Source: Clostridiaceae bacterium (GTDB lineage Bacteria > Bacillota > Clostridia > DSM-8532). Taken from it: a stretch of 32,226 bases of DNA. Both the position numbers and the translations under genes were made by a program. Every line of letters starts with the position of its first letter. Position 1 is the first letter of the stretch. This document shows positions 12,346-17,038 of the stretch, piece by piece. The notes under the pieces were generated by a model. That model did not search any database. It worked only from the letters and a program-made list of their open reading frames with translations, and was not told where the DNA came from. The stretch covers positions 1 through 32,226 of the forward strand of contig JAAXZX010000005.1 in assembly GCA_012719645.1 (NCBI GenBank). The letters run 5' to 3'.

Positions 12346-13353
12346 TTACCACCCGGTATCCTCGGACTCGTGCTTTTTGCTGCGGGTCATCAGGTCATAA
12401 ACCGCCTTTTTGCAGTCCTTCCCCTCAAAAAGGATACGATAAGCCTCGCGGCAGATGGGCATGGTGATCCTGTACTGGTCCATCAGCCTCTTTGCCGCTT
12501 TTGCTGCCGATATGCCCTCTACCACCATTTTTACGCGGGCTGTGGCTTCATCCGGGGATAATCCCTTTCCTATAAGGTTGCCCGCCCTCCAGTTGCGGCT
12601 GTGCTGGCTGGTGCAGGTAACGATCAGGTCCCCAATGCCGGTAAGCCCTGAAAAAGTGGCTGCATTGGCTCCCATGGCCGTTCCCAGCCTTGCGATCTCG
12701 GTGATGCCCCTTGCCATCAGGGCGGCCTTGCTGTTGTCTCCATAGCCAAGCCCGTCGCTGATTCCGGCGCACAGCGCTATTACATTCTTTAGGGCAGCCC
12801 CTATCTCGGCCCCGATTATGTCGGAACTGGTATATACCCTGAAACATGGCGACATGAACAGGTCCTGGACTGCCATGGCCGCGTCCCGGTCCGGGCATGC
12901 TGCCACAACCGTTGTAGGAATGCCGACGGCCACTTCCTCGGCATGGCTTGGCCCGTAAAGCGCCACAACCCGTACGTCCGGCACCTCTTCCAGTATGACC
13001 TGGCTCAGCCTCTTCCCGGTTTCTTCCTCTATCCCCTTTGAACAGAGCACGACGATATCATTCCGCGAAAGGTACGGCAAAAGCAGCCTTGCATTCTCCC
13101 TGACGGTCTGGGACGGGACAACAATAACCACAAAGTCATGGCCCTCAAGGCAGTCCTTCAGATCCGTGGTGAAGATCACATTCCCGGGAACCTTCACACC
13201 CGGAAGCTTATCCTTGTGTTCCCTGTCCCGGTTCAGGATCTCAATCTCATCCTCGAAACGGGACCAGACACGAACCTTGTGCCCGTTGTTTGAAAGGAGC
13301 ACTGAAAGGCTGACTCCCCAGCTCCCCGCTCCGATTATCGATACCACTGACAT
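12346..13353 (-). CDS. gpsA: NAD(P)-dependent glycerol-3-phosphate dehydrogenase
   Basis: GpsA, 335 residues. It reduces dihydroxyacetone phosphate to sn-glycerol-3-phosphate, the backbone for phospholipids. The N-terminal Rossmann motif is GAGSWG (8-13). SKGIEEETGKRLSQ and GPSHAEEVAVGIPT are characteristic. The catalytic Lys lies in AALKNVIALCAGISDGLGYGDNSKAALM, and TCTSQHSRN follows. A TTG two codons upstream opens the frame, but the ATG at 13351-13353 is preferred; its ribosome site is weak (GGGTG). It is third in der-plsY-gpsA and supplies the substrate for PlsY. Confidence 0.95.
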   Translation of the reverse strand: MSVVSIIGAGSWGVSLSVLLSNNGHKVRVWSRFEDEIEILNRDREHKDKLPGVKVPGNVIFTTDLKDCLEGHDFVVIVVPSQTVRENARLLLPYLSRNDIVVLCSKGIEEETGKRLSQVILEEVPDVRVVALYGPSHAEEVAVGIPTTVVAACPDRDAAMAVQDLFMSPCFRVYTSSDIIGAEIGAALKNVIALCAGISDGLGYGDNSKAALMARGITEIARLGTAMGANAATFSGLTGIGDLIVTCTSQHSRNWRAGNLIGKGLSPDEATARVKMVVEGISAAKAAKRLMDQYRITMPICREAYRILFEGKDCKKAVYDLMTRSKKHESEDTGW

Positions 13354-13435
13354 ACGCAAACACCCGCACTTTTAGCATATTTTTATGGAAATTCCCCCGG
13401 AAGCCTGCATGGCAGGCAGATCATAGGTCAGACCG

Positions 13436-14044
13436 TTATGTCCGCCTGAAGCTCAGTTTTTTCTCGCTTCCCTCAAGAAGGCGCCTGATATTTGAAGAAT
13501 GCCTGAAGATGATGAGAATTGCCAGGACCGCGGCAGTAAGGACAAGGAAAAGCGGCTCGCCCATAATCCAAACCACTATGGGGAACGCGGCGCCTCCGAC
13601 CATGGAGCCCAGCGATACATACCGGGTAACCGCAACCACGAGGATAAAGCATGCGAGGCATACCAGCGCCGCTATGGGCGAAAGCATGACGGCCACTGAG
13701 AAAGCGGTCGCAACGCCCTTGCCGCCCTTGAATCCGAAATACAGGGGCCAGTTGTGCCCGACGACAGCCATTATCCCGGAACAGTATTCTCCCGCATAAA
13801 TCCCCGGGGAGGTTTCACCGGCCAGCCATCTTCCGATAAGGCATGCCAGCACGCCTTTAAGAAAATCGCCGGCCACCACAAGAAGAGCGGCGGTTTTCCC
13901 CAGCGTCCTCAGGGTATTGGTGGCCCCGGCATTGCCGCTTCCGTACTGGCGCACATCCTTTTTATAAAACAGTTTTCCCAGGACCAGCGATGTATTGACG
14001 CTGCCCAGGAGATACCCCGCAACAGCCGAAAGAACGATCATCAT
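13436..14044 (-). CDS. plsY: Acyl-phosphate:glycerol-3-phosphate acyltransferase PlsY
   Basis: PlsY, 202 residues, an integral membrane enzyme that moves an acyl chain from acyl-phosphate to glycerol-3-phosphate, giving lysophosphatidic acid. It is hydrophobic throughout, with about five membrane helices. The loop motifs are GSVNTSLVLGK, the glycine-rich GSGNAGATNTLRTLGK, and GHNWPLYFGFKGGKGVAT, which bind phosphate and acyl groups. The C-terminal HSSNIRRLLEGSEKKL is usual. The ATG overlaps the der stop in an ATGA arrangement (14041-14044). Adjacent to gpsA, so substrate and user are made from one transcript. Confidence 0.96.
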   Translation of the reverse strand: MMIVLSAVAGYLLGSVNTSLVLGKLFYKKDVRQYGSGNAGATNTLRTLGKTAALLVVAGDFLKGVLACLIGRWLAGETSPGIYAGEYCSGIMAVVGHNWPLYFGFKGGKGVATAFSVAVMLSPIAALVCLACFILVVAVTRYVSLGSMVGGAAFPIVVWIMGEPLFLVLTAAVLAILIIFRHSSNIRRLLEGSEKKLSFRRT

Positions 14045-15366
14045 TCCTTTTCACCCTTCTCCCTGATGGTAAACCATATTGGTGTGCCTTCAAACCCGAA
14101 ATTGCTCCTCAGGGTATTCTTGAGATACCGTTCATATGAGTAATGCATCAGTTCAGCATCGTTGACGAAAAGCACAAAGCTTGGCGGACGCACACCCGTC
14201 TGTGTCATATAGTATATCTTCAGCCTCTTGCCCTTGTCGGAGGGAGGCTGGACCATGGCAATGGCTTCATTGAGCACATCGTTCAGAACGCCTGTCTGTA
14301 TTCTCAGGCTGGCCTGGTCAAAGACGTAGTCGATCAGTTCCAGGAGCCTGTCCACCCGCTGACCCGTTTTTGCCGAGATGAAGACTATGGGCGCGTAGCT
14401 CATGTACTCCAGGTCCTCGGCGACCTTCTTTTTGTACTTCTCCAGCGTGCCTGTCTGCTTTCCTATCAGGTCCCACTTGTTCACAGCGATGATGCAGGCC
14501 TTCCCCTGCTCATGGGCATACCCGGCAATCCTTGTATCCTGCTCGGTAACGCCGTCCTGTGCATCGATCATGATGATGCAGACATCCGCCCTGTCCACGG
14601 CCGTCCATGCGCGGAGCACACTGTACTTCTCTATTTCCTCGTCCACCTTGCTCTTACGCCTGATGCCGGCTGTATCGATGAACAGATACCGTTTCCCATT
14701 GGTCTCATACAGGGTGTCGATGGCATCCCTGGTGGTGCCCGGGATATCGCTGACAATAACCCTTTCTTCCCCCAGGATCCTGTTTATAAGCGAGGATTTC
14801 CCGGCGTTCGGCTTTCCTATGACCGCTACCTTCACCGCGTCATCATCCGCGTCGGTTTCGCCGGAAGCAGGAAAATGCTCGTAAACAGCATCAAGAAGCT
14901 CCCCGATGCCCAGCCCGTGGATGGAGGATATGGGATAGATCTCACCCATGCCGAGGTTGTAGAACTCGTAGATATCGGTGGGCGGCTCGCCCGGATTATC
15001 CACTTTATTGACCGCCACCAGCACCGGTTTTGCCGCCTTTCTCAGGATGGACGCCACTTCCTCATCCATGGCGGTCATGCCGGCCTTGATGTCCACCATC
15101 ATAACGATAACATCGGCCATTTCAATGGCGACATGGGCCTGGCGGATCATCTGCTGTTTTATGAAGTCATCAGTGTTGGTCTCAATGCCGCCGGTATCGA
15201 TTATGGTGAATTTCCGGCCTCTCCATTCGCTTTCGGCATAGATCCTGTCACGGGTGACGCCCGGCGTGTCGTCTATGATGGATATCCTTTTCCCGGCCAG
15301 GTAATTAAAAAATGTCGACTTACCGACATTTGGCCTTCCGACTATGGCAACAACAGGTCCTGGCAA
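14041..15366 (-). CDS. der: Ribosome-associated GTPase Der (EngA)
   Basis: Der/EngA, 441 residues, an essential double GTPase for 50S subunit assembly. The first G domain starts with GRPNVGKST near residue 10, with DTGGI and NKVDNPGE. The second starts with GKPNAGKSS near residue 185, with DTAGIRRKSKV and NKWD. The C-terminal KH-like domain includes YYMTQTGVRPPSFVLFVN. The start codon is TTG (15364-15366), supported by GGAGGT 8 nt upstream. der-plsY-gpsA is a common Bacillota order. Its own promoter is at 15443-15471. Confidence 0.96.
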   Translation of the reverse strand: MPGPVVAIVGRPNVGKSTFFNYLAGKRISIIDDTPGVTRDRIYAESEWRGRKFTIIDTGGIETNTDDFIKQQMIRQAHVAIEMADVIVMMVDIKAGMTAMDEEVASILRKAAKPVLVAVNKVDNPGEPPTDIYEFYNLGMGEIYPISSIHGLGIGELLDAVYEHFPASGETDADDDAVKVAVIGKPNAGKSSLINRILGEERVIVSDIPGTTRDAIDTLYETNGKRYLFIDTAGIRRKSKVDEEIEKYSVLRAWTAVDRADVCIIMIDAQDGVTEQDTRIAGYAHEQGKACIIAVNKWDLIGKQTGTLEKYKKKVAEDLEYMSYAPIVFISAKTGQRVDRLLELIDYVFDQASLRIQTGVLNDVLNEAIAMVQPPSDKGKRLKIYYMTQTGVRPPSFVLFVNDAELMHYSYERYLKNTLRSNFGFEGTPIWFTIREKGEKE

Positions 15367-15442
15367 ATTCTTTTACCTCCGAATCGCTGGTCTTGGTTCA
15401 AACACGCATTGTCCGCGGGAAAAATTCCCTTCTCGCATATAC

Positions 15443-15471
15443 ATTCTACCCGCTTTTTGCAAAGATATCAA
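15443..15471 (-). promoter_or_regulatory. Sigma-A promoter of der-plsY-gpsA
   Basis: Minus strand TTGATA (15466-15471), a 17-nt spacer and TAGAAT (15443-15448), 76 bp upstream of the TTG start. A small hairpin (GGGAA-AAA-TTCCC, 15417-15429) lies in the leader. Confidence 0.75.
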
Positions 15472-15529
15472 GGAATACAGGAGACAGTTCCTCGTCCGGG
15501 TATCCCAATCCTAAAAACGTTGCGGGCAG

Positions 15530-15600
15530 AGCGCGGCAATCTATTCATAGCGGTAACCGATATGCGATAAAGGCTCGCATTTGCATGAATAGGACGCGCT
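15530..15600. repeat. Nested inverted repeat in the rplL-der spacer
   Basis: AGCGCG (15530-15535) pairs with CGCGCT (15595-15600). Inside it, CTATTCAT (15541-15548) pairs perfectly with ATGAATAG (15585-15592), and ATGCG pairs with CGCAT within the loop. The result is a multi-stem element of about 71 nt with no T-run. It could be a structured RNA or a small mobile repeat; I recognise no family. Confidence 0.5.
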
Positions 15601-15628
15601 GTTTCTGTCTCGACTGACTCCGCAATTT

Positions 15629-15729
15629 AGAGGTGGGAAGTGAGATGTTGGAAGTGGGAGAATAAGAATGGCTACGAAGTCGTATATAATTGAACATCTA
15701 ACATCTAACCTCCCACTTCTCACTTCAAT
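15629..15729. repeat. Degenerate GAAGTGAG/GAAGTGGGA inverted repeat
   Basis: The left arm (15631-15660) contains GAAGTGAGA and AGTGGGAG separated by a 7-nt insert (TGTTGGA). The right arm (15710-15727) reads CTCCCACTTCTCACTTC on the plus strand, the exact complement of the left arm without the insert. ACATCTA is also repeated (15694-15708). This kind of purine-rich heptamer array occurs as an intergenic repeat in many bacteria. There is no coding content. Confidence 0.6.
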
Positions 15730-15827
15730 TTACGAGGACTGAAGGAGAGACTGAACAGCGCGGCTGCAACAAATGGGAAAGCACAGCAGAGATTGCCGCG
15801 CTTCGCACGCAACGACAGCATACAAAA

Positions 15828-15855
15828 CAAGCCGGACCTTTGCTGATCCGGCTTG
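15828..15855 (-). terminator. Intrinsic terminator after rplL
   Basis: CAAGCCGGA (15828-15836), a 10-nt loop and TCCGGCTTG (15847-15855). On the minus strand the stem is followed by TTTTGT. It ends the ribosomal operon 19 bp after the rplL stop, so transcription is not meant to run into der. Confidence 0.85.
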
Positions 15856-15874
15856 CTCAATGCTCTCAGGATTA

Positions 15875-16252
15875 TTACTTGATTTCCACGACAGCGCCGA
15901 CTTCCTTGAACTTGGCAGCGATAGCCTCGGCCTCTTCCTTGGAAACACCTTCCTTGATGGTGCTGGGAACCTTTTCGGTTACATCCTTGGCTTCCTTCAG
16001 TCCAAGGTTGGTGAGCTCGCGAACAACCTTGATAACCTTGATCTTCTCGGGACCGGTTTCCTTAAGGATAACATCGAACTCGGTCTTCTCCTCAACCGGA
16101 GCGGCAGCGGCAGCAGCGGCAGGGCCGGCAGCTACGGCAACAGGTGCGGCGGAAACGCCGAATTCCTCTTCAATAGCCTTTACAAGGTCTTTCAGTTCAA
16201 GAATGGACATAGCCTTAATCTCTTCAATAAACTTCGCTATCTTTTCACTCAT
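15875..16252 (-). CDS. rplL: 50S ribosomal protein L7/L12
   Basis: L7/L12, 125 residues, the stalk protein that recruits translation GTPases. The N-terminal dimerisation helices ([22 protein letters not shown]) are followed by an Ala-rich hinge ([16 protein letters not shown]). The globular C-terminal domain has the [20 protein letters not shown] signature. An ATG two codons upstream (16256-16258) is only 2-3 nt from AGGAGG; the ATG at 16250-16252 has about 8 nt spacing and is preferred. It ends the operon here; rpoB does not follow. Confidence 0.96.
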
Positions 16253-16311
16253 TTTCATTTCCTCCTGTTCAAAGTATAAAATCGTTTCCTGGTTAATACA
16301 TTCCTGACGGG

Positions 16312-16821
16312 TTATGCTTCCTGAGCCTGCTCCTGCTTTTCAACAATAGCATTGAGAGCAATGGCAAGGCCATAAAGTGAGCTCTGCAGGCTGCCAATGA
16401 GCCTTGCAAGCAGTTCTTCCCTGGACGGGGTCTGGGCTAGTTCCTTGACACCGTCAATATCAAGGATCTTACCCTCTACCATGCCAGCCTTGATCTCCAG
16501 TTTTTCATAATCTTTCGCAAACTGGGCAATCAGCTTGGAAGGAGTAACGGGATCAGTATCGCTGATGGCGATGGCCGTAGGACCTTCCAGGTACTTTTCA
16601 AGTTCGCTGTACTGGGTATCCTTCACTGCAAAGCGGACGATGGAGTTCTTGTAGACCCTGTAATCGACGCCTGCTTCGCGCATGGCCCTTCTCATCTTGG
16701 TGTCCTGCTCTACGGTAAGGCCCCTGTAGTCGGCCAGCACAAATGCCTGGGCTTTCGCCAGCTTGCCGCTCAGCTTCTCCACCTCTTCCTTCTTCTGCTG
16801 CAGTATCCTTTCACTGGGCAT
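16312..16821 (-). CDS. rplJ: 50S ribosomal protein L10
   Basis: L10, 169 residues, the base of the ribosomal stalk. It carries L7/L12 dimers on its C-terminal helix and binds 23S rRNA with L11. [22 protein letters not shown] and [11 protein letters not shown] are family signatures, and the C-terminal helix [18 protein letters not shown] docks L12. The start follows AAGGAGG. The 50S complex L10(L12)4 classically represses its own mRNA; the leader at 16880-17003 is the matching target. Confidence 0.96.
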
Positions 16822-16879
16822 TTCAGCACCTCCTTGATGAAATATTCTTTCTGCGGTATCTGTCTTTAGGTTATCTGTT

Positions 16880-17003
16880 CAAAACAAAAACCCTTTCGCG
16901 ATCCAAACCATAGACTGCGAAAGGGTTATAGTATACCCATTTCTCTCAAACCTCGGCAGGATGATATACGTTACACCCAAAGGGTTCCTGCTGTCTACGG
17001 TTT
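16880..17003 (-). ncRNA. L10 leader (rplJL autoregulatory RNA)
   Basis: On the minus strand, AAACCGTAGACAGCAGG and, further on, CCTGCCGAGGTTT match the conserved halves of the L10 leader. The AAACC/GGTTT and CAGG/CCTG pairs enclose a kink-turn-like region (core about 16948-17003). It lies between rplA and rplJ, the expected place. L10(L12)4 binding is known to tune rplJL expression. A strong intrinsic hairpin follows, so control here is probably by premature termination. Confidence 0.85.
16889..16927 (-). terminator. Attenuator hairpin of the L10 leader
   Basis: AACCCTTTCGC (16889-16899) and GCGAAAGGGTT (16917-16927) form a perfect 11-bp stem with a 17-nt loop. The minus strand continues into TTTTTGTTTTG. 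It sits between the leader core and the rplJ start, the architecture of transcription attenuation. Confidence 0.9.
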
Positions 17004-17038
17004 AAACCACGAACGCTATTGTATATGATATCAGCCGA

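Follow-up and report, generated by a model that had tools for sequence, protein, structure and literature searches.

The rplL–der junction of a clostridial genome very probably reflects an old break-up, in steps, of the secE-rpoBC-str-S10 operon supercluster

How did rplL come to stand next to der, rather than next to rpoB, in the genome of this uncultured clostridium? The window, meaning the whole stretch of 32,226 nucleotides analysed here, is the entire contig C11 of a 2.6 Mb genome (G000) assembled in 142 contigs. Its minus strand carries, in order, a radical-SAM gene, secD, secF, nusG, rplK, rplA, rplJ, rplL, a 508-bp gap, der, plsY and gpsA. An earlier note had read the gap as a strong terminator followed by repeats and a der-plsY-gpsA unit with its own promoter, and had proposed either an ancestral rearrangement exactly at the rplL–rpoB junction, possibly through the repeats, or an assembly join. 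We identified nusG and gpsA through Pfam, and der, rplL and rpoB through homologue searches; plsY is named after the family to which it presumably belongs, and the radical-SAM gene beside secD is presumably scfB, a name that fits both its position and its family. The genes and signals around the junction are as follows.

12346–13359, minus strand: gpsA (Pfam NAD_Gly3P_dh)
13436–14044, minus strand: plsY (open reading frame; stays beside der in relatives)
14041–15366, minus strand: der, ribosome-biogenesis GTPase, TTG start (open reading frame and homologue search)
15471–15443, minus strand: der promoter, TTGATA-17-TAGAAT (conserved in G000, G001, G003 and G004)
15822–15858, minus strand: rplL intrinsic terminator, hairpin and T-run (fold of 15822–15866: -23.9 kcal/mol, z -5.8)
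15875–16258, minus strand: rplL, ribosomal protein L7/L12 (open reading frame; homologues in 40 of 41 genomes)
16312–16821, minus strand: rplJ (open reading frame and neighbouring genes)
16876–17018, minus strand: L10 leader RNA upstream of rplJ (Rfam RF00557)

Both signals named by the earlier note hold up. The rplL terminator hairpin is present in all five members of the genus, with paired changes in G004 that are visible by eye in the alignment, and the TTG start of der and its Shine-Dalgarno sequence are conserved, like the promoter, in four species. The RF00557 match upstream of rplJ scores 66.3 bits, above the curated gathering threshold of 44 bits, and because this leader is in place the control of L10 and L12 looks ordinary; what differs is that rpoBC no longer lies downstream. 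The window holds no tRNAs.

The earlier note had suggested looking at what precedes rpoB elsewhere in the genome. A single rpoB was found, on contig C2 and away from the contig of the window, with rpoC after it. In front of it stand a pair of ecf transport genes, a kinase of the ROK type and truA, names presumed from the translations; a motif scan finds rpsJ, rplC, rpsS and rpoA further ahead on this contig, which begins near rpsJ. The order truA-rpoB-rpoC recurs in G012, which is assembled in one contig, and in G016 and G025. No str operon follows rpoC in G012 within the stretch that was read, whereas in G039, which retains rplL beside rpoB, motifs of rpsL, fusA and tuf come after rpoC.

The age of the separation was estimated from 33 genomes of the order, 30 of which have both a convincing rplL and an rpoB N-terminus; the others are G041 (no rplL match), G042 (a 43% partial match in a longer frame) and G013 (no rpoB N-terminus). 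The two genes adjoin in none of the 30: they are more than 1 Mb apart on the one contig of G012 and on separate contigs in the other 29, although most of these genomes are fragmented metagenome-assembled genomes, in which separate contigs weigh less than direct linkage, and in G002, G015, G018, G019 and G045 the contig ends just past rplL, so that separation there is a matter of contig membership only. For the second family of the order there is a single genome (G025), which has other genes after its rplL. Outside the order, 15 families of the class were sampled with one genome apiece; rplL and rpoB adjoin in five of the 13 families that could be determined (G027, G028, G036, G037, G039), other genes follow rplL in the remaining eight (G029, G030, G031, G033, G034, G035, G038, G040), and two families were left out, G032 at a contig end and G026 with no rplL match. 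The latter genome gives no match with this query though it is listed as 100% complete, and its rplL may be divergent or fall in a gap. Since rplL and rpoB are apart in every determinable genome of the order, the one-contig genome included, we take their separation, judged from gene order, to be an old, settled state of the order and not an assembly join. The earlier note had named just such a state, shared by all relatives, as a refutation, and for the rplL–rpoB separation this is what is found. Its reading is thus borne out in part: the ancestral break stands, as does the separate promoter of der.

The adjacency of rplL and der has a narrower distribution. It is found in four of the five genomes of the window's genus, and in the fifth (G002) the contig stops 215 bp past rplL and no der orthologue was found. 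Most other genera of the family carry the order rplL-lysA-der, which was confirmed in ten genomes from five of them, by coordinates in G006–G010 and G012–G014 and by panel matches on their contigs in G017 and G018; an additional 4.6 kb separates lysA from der in G018, and G021 has a gap after rplL of a size fitting lysA. The five genomes read from the sister genus (G011, G016, G022, G023, G024) have other genes after rplL, with der on another contig. In the Acetivibrio records and in G025 a different gene precedes der, from its translation presumably the DUF512-type protein that is common in this position. No lysA orthologue at 63% identity or above is present in any of the five genomes of the window's genus, where the best match reaches 33–34%; one genome of the sister genus, G005, has lysA at 63% identity, away from rplL. 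In a tree of six proteins the lysA-bearing genus g4 is sister to the window's genus plus its sister genus (supports 0.994 and 0.997), and the other lysA genera fall outside. Given the absence of lysA in the window's genus and the tree position of the genera that have it, loss of lysA is the simplest reading, and the rplL–der neighbourhood is probably what remained of rplL-lysA-der. The copy in G005 indicates that lysA may have been moved rather than deleted. The earlier note's break, made straight from rplL-rpoB to rplL-der, is not supported: the separation from rpoB is order-wide, whereas the rplL–der adjacency is confined to the genus, as expected from loss of lysA.

The earlier note overstated the repeats at about 500 bp, which is the length of the whole gap (508 bp); the repeats occupy only about 300 bp of it (approximately 15518–15818), and the remainder is terminator at one end and der promoter and leader at the other. 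The repeat stretch is a nest of palindromes, in which outer arms enclose the arms of a dispersed element, here called c, and these enclose a purine-rich palindrome, b.

15518–15542, plus strand: outer arm of the repeat element (inverted repeat I1 with 15790–15814; resembles the GTCATTGCGAGC..GGCAATCT repeat)
15593–15624, plus strand: left arm of the c element (copies elsewhere; limits set by eye)
15625–15729, plus strand: inner purine-rich palindrome, the b core, between the c arms (inverted repeats I2 and I3; other copies)
15730–15766, plus strand: right arm of the c element (copies elsewhere; limits set by eye)
15790–15814, plus strand: outer arm, inverted (inverted repeat I1)

Inner inverted arms lie at 15637–15655 and 15708–15726. 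The gap sequence matches 31 further places in its own genome (E ≤ 0.01) and the 301-base repeat stretch folds with a z of -7.8, and for both reasons the repeats are not a chance feature. There are no tandem repeats in the window, and Rfam searches over 12 repeat loci returned T-box, 5S rRNA and tRNAs only, with nothing on the repeat itself. A query with c gave matches in six of the 26 genomes searched and two of 17 genera; by length and score the copies are full-size in the window's genome and G003, G005 holds a partial one, and only the outer end is matched in G001, G002 and G004. The element (fold z -8.6) is about 210 bp long, is dispersed and folds into one long rod, with copies at L013:1325–1560, L014 and L011 in the window's genome, at L203 and L209 in G003, and at other loci; its inner core is interchangeable and may be rich in hairpins, consist of the b palindrome or be almost absent. 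Two other contigs of the window's genome, C135 and C21, share one repeat at their start (first 200 bases; L018 and L019), with short GAACCGTCCCC-containing repeats behind it, as though assembly had halted there.

The inverted outer arms of these repeats, which have many further copies in the genome, might correspond to the paired REPs of a REPIN. The repeats resemble the REPINs and REP elements with RAYT transposases, the subject of PMC3116915, in being short dispersed intergenic palindromes in inverted pairs; the interchangeable inner cores of c set them apart, and a clear RAYT link did not emerge. In the five genomes of the genus no Y1 transposase (RAYT) gene with these REPs in its flanks was found: four of them have one Y1_Tnp match each, with just a few loose motif matches in the flanks, and G004 has no such match yet has the most matches to the REP pattern (28).

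When the gaps of four species of the genus are aligned, the terminator end and the der promoter and leader end are conserved and the fillings are unrelated. The window's genome has the REP-c-b-c-REP nest; in G003 a complete c element runs the other way, with another core, and is joined by another repeat; G001 has two copies of a second repeat and G004 has one. This second family (L083, L086) thus occurs twice in G001, once in G004 in the other orientation, and partly in G003. These alignments show that the repeats are later than the rplL–der junction and were collected separately in each species, and the gap behaves like neutral space separating two transcription units.

With these distributions in hand, the alternatives can be weighed. 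An assembly in 142 contigs whose gap repeats recur elsewhere in the genome is one in which two unrelated contig pieces, one ending in rplL and one in der, might have been fused at such a repeat. However, three other assemblies of the genus join rplL and der with different repeats between them, and the arrangement and orientation of rplL, lysA and der agree between the one-contig member of the family, with its distant rpoB, and nine further genomes, and we regard such an artefact as hardly credible. Recombination between the gap repeats as the cause of the rplL–rpoB break is very improbable. It would account for the location of repeats at the junction, and the text consulted of PMC8046335 holds that transposable elements may aid rearrangements of this sort, but the break is order-wide while the c element has the restricted distribution given above, the gaps of G001 and G004 hold another repeat, and the element in G003 is flipped around a different core. 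Because kind, number and orientation of the repeats vary by species while the junction persists, we do not consider them the cause of the break.

The reverse history for lysA, with rplL-der as the older state of the family and lysA entering between the two genes in the other genera, would be in keeping with the location of lysA outside this place in G005 and with its absence from between rplL and der in G025. Genera with lysA occur on either side of the deepest split in the family tree, however, so insertion would take more than one event, and we think this history unlikely. Loss of lysA in the window's genus is therefore the reading that we carry forward.

We also looked at transcription signals after rplL and before rpoB. 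A promoter module that consists of TTGAC-17-TA...T and, after it, A(C/T)TGC is found in 32 of 44 rpoB upstream regions, compared to a mean of 0.05 in shuffled sequences (the upstream region of G019 has no rpoB start in it and was dropped from the count); the 12 regions that lack it are mostly from other families of the class. A terminator-like hairpin within 220 bases after rplL is found in 22 of 36 genomes, compared to 0.15 in shuffles, and 14 rplL genes have none by this strict rule. Among the five genomes in which rplL and rpoB adjoin, three have the module (G028, G036, G039) and three the terminator (G027, G028, G037). Judged by the module and the hairpin, rplL and rpoBC have the look of separate transcription units also where they are neighbours, and the break probably fell at a transcription boundary that already existed. 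The window itself also has a promoter of the TTGACA type that resembles the rpoB module, its start region (ATTGC) being similar; it lies from 19386 downwards on the minus strand, upstream of the small genes before nusG.

On contig C2, the stretch upstream of rpoB (L082:5921–6290) holds a strong promoter and a conserved, apparently structured leader of roughly 300 nt (fold z -3.5), and homologous leaders occur in relatives. Fourteen leaders from the window's genus and its sister genus show 72% column identity and contain long blocks without any change. Near the 5' end, GTATTGTATT pairs with AGTACAATAC in the window's genome and ATATTGTGTCC pairs with GGGTACAATAT in several other genera, the first pair of the helix changing from G-C to A-U between genera (a change noted by eye rather than by a tool). 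Across the 14 sequences, only one of the 34 pairs in the consensus fold has changes on both sides, and covariation within these two genera is therefore weak, almost nil. The stem finder chose a different best repeat or a partial helix in several genomes (for example G001, G002, G022, G024, G017, G025 and G045) and found no 5' leader helix in genomes outside the order; Rfam gave no match over the leader up to an E of 1. It is possible, though we put it forward only tentatively, that rpoBC, once uncoupled from the L10-controlled operon, came in this family under its own unrecorded, structured, cis-regulatory leader RNA. Such an RNA might extend over about 270–400 nt between the strong promoter, with its conserved A(C/T)TGC start region, and rpoB, and could perhaps comprise a helix of about 9–12 bp and a second long stem ahead of a U-rich stretch. 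We treat the structured leader as a lead, not a result.

Taken together, the comparisons make it very probable that in one clostridial order the secE-rpoBC-str-S10 supercluster broke up long ago and in steps, and that the junction is where this has led today. Comparison across the order shows that rpoBC left the site after rplL for a place next to truA, where the S10-spc-alpha-ecf cluster has its far end, with a strong promoter of its own, and that secE-nusG-rplKAJL went elsewhere. This first break was probably tolerated because the units were already separately terminated and promoted, as suggested by the families in which rplL and rpoB still adjoin. Gene order within the family then shows a state with lysA and der after rplL, and by parsimony lysA would have been lost in the window's genus, bringing rplL beside der-plsY-gpsA. 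The leftover space between terminator and promoter gathered short palindromic repeats, independently in each species. In functional terms the rplJL operon would retain control by the L10 leader, and rpoBC would be transcribed from its own promoter and leader.

rplL and rpoB are ancestral neighbours, and their separation here makes this a broken secE-rpoBC supercluster. Break-ups of the same operon cluster have been reconstructed in Gammaproteobacteria and Bacilli, including the movement of rplJL out of the rpoBC operon in Haemophilus influenzae and the insertion of genes after rplL in Lactobacillaceae, and a pattern of invasion followed by separation was favoured (PMC8046335, from the text consulted). 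The main text of that study does not contain the word 'Clostridia', and in the cases it describes the cluster is the same as here; the present case differs in having rpoBC behind truA of the ecf operon, and lysA and der after rplL. The genes that follow rplL in our genomes vary between genera, and no intermediate of an insertion with later dispersal was seen among them. Judged from titles and the beginnings of abstracts, we found no published report of an rplL/rpoB break in Clostridia. This is a known kind of event, now in another class, and a modest and mostly ordinary addition. With a rough dating and intermediate states, the clostridial case is a further one among the documented break-ups of what is the most conserved operon cluster in bacteria, and it suggests that the supercluster breaks where transcription units are already separate; the conserved rpoB leader is a testable candidate regulator of RNA polymerase synthesis.
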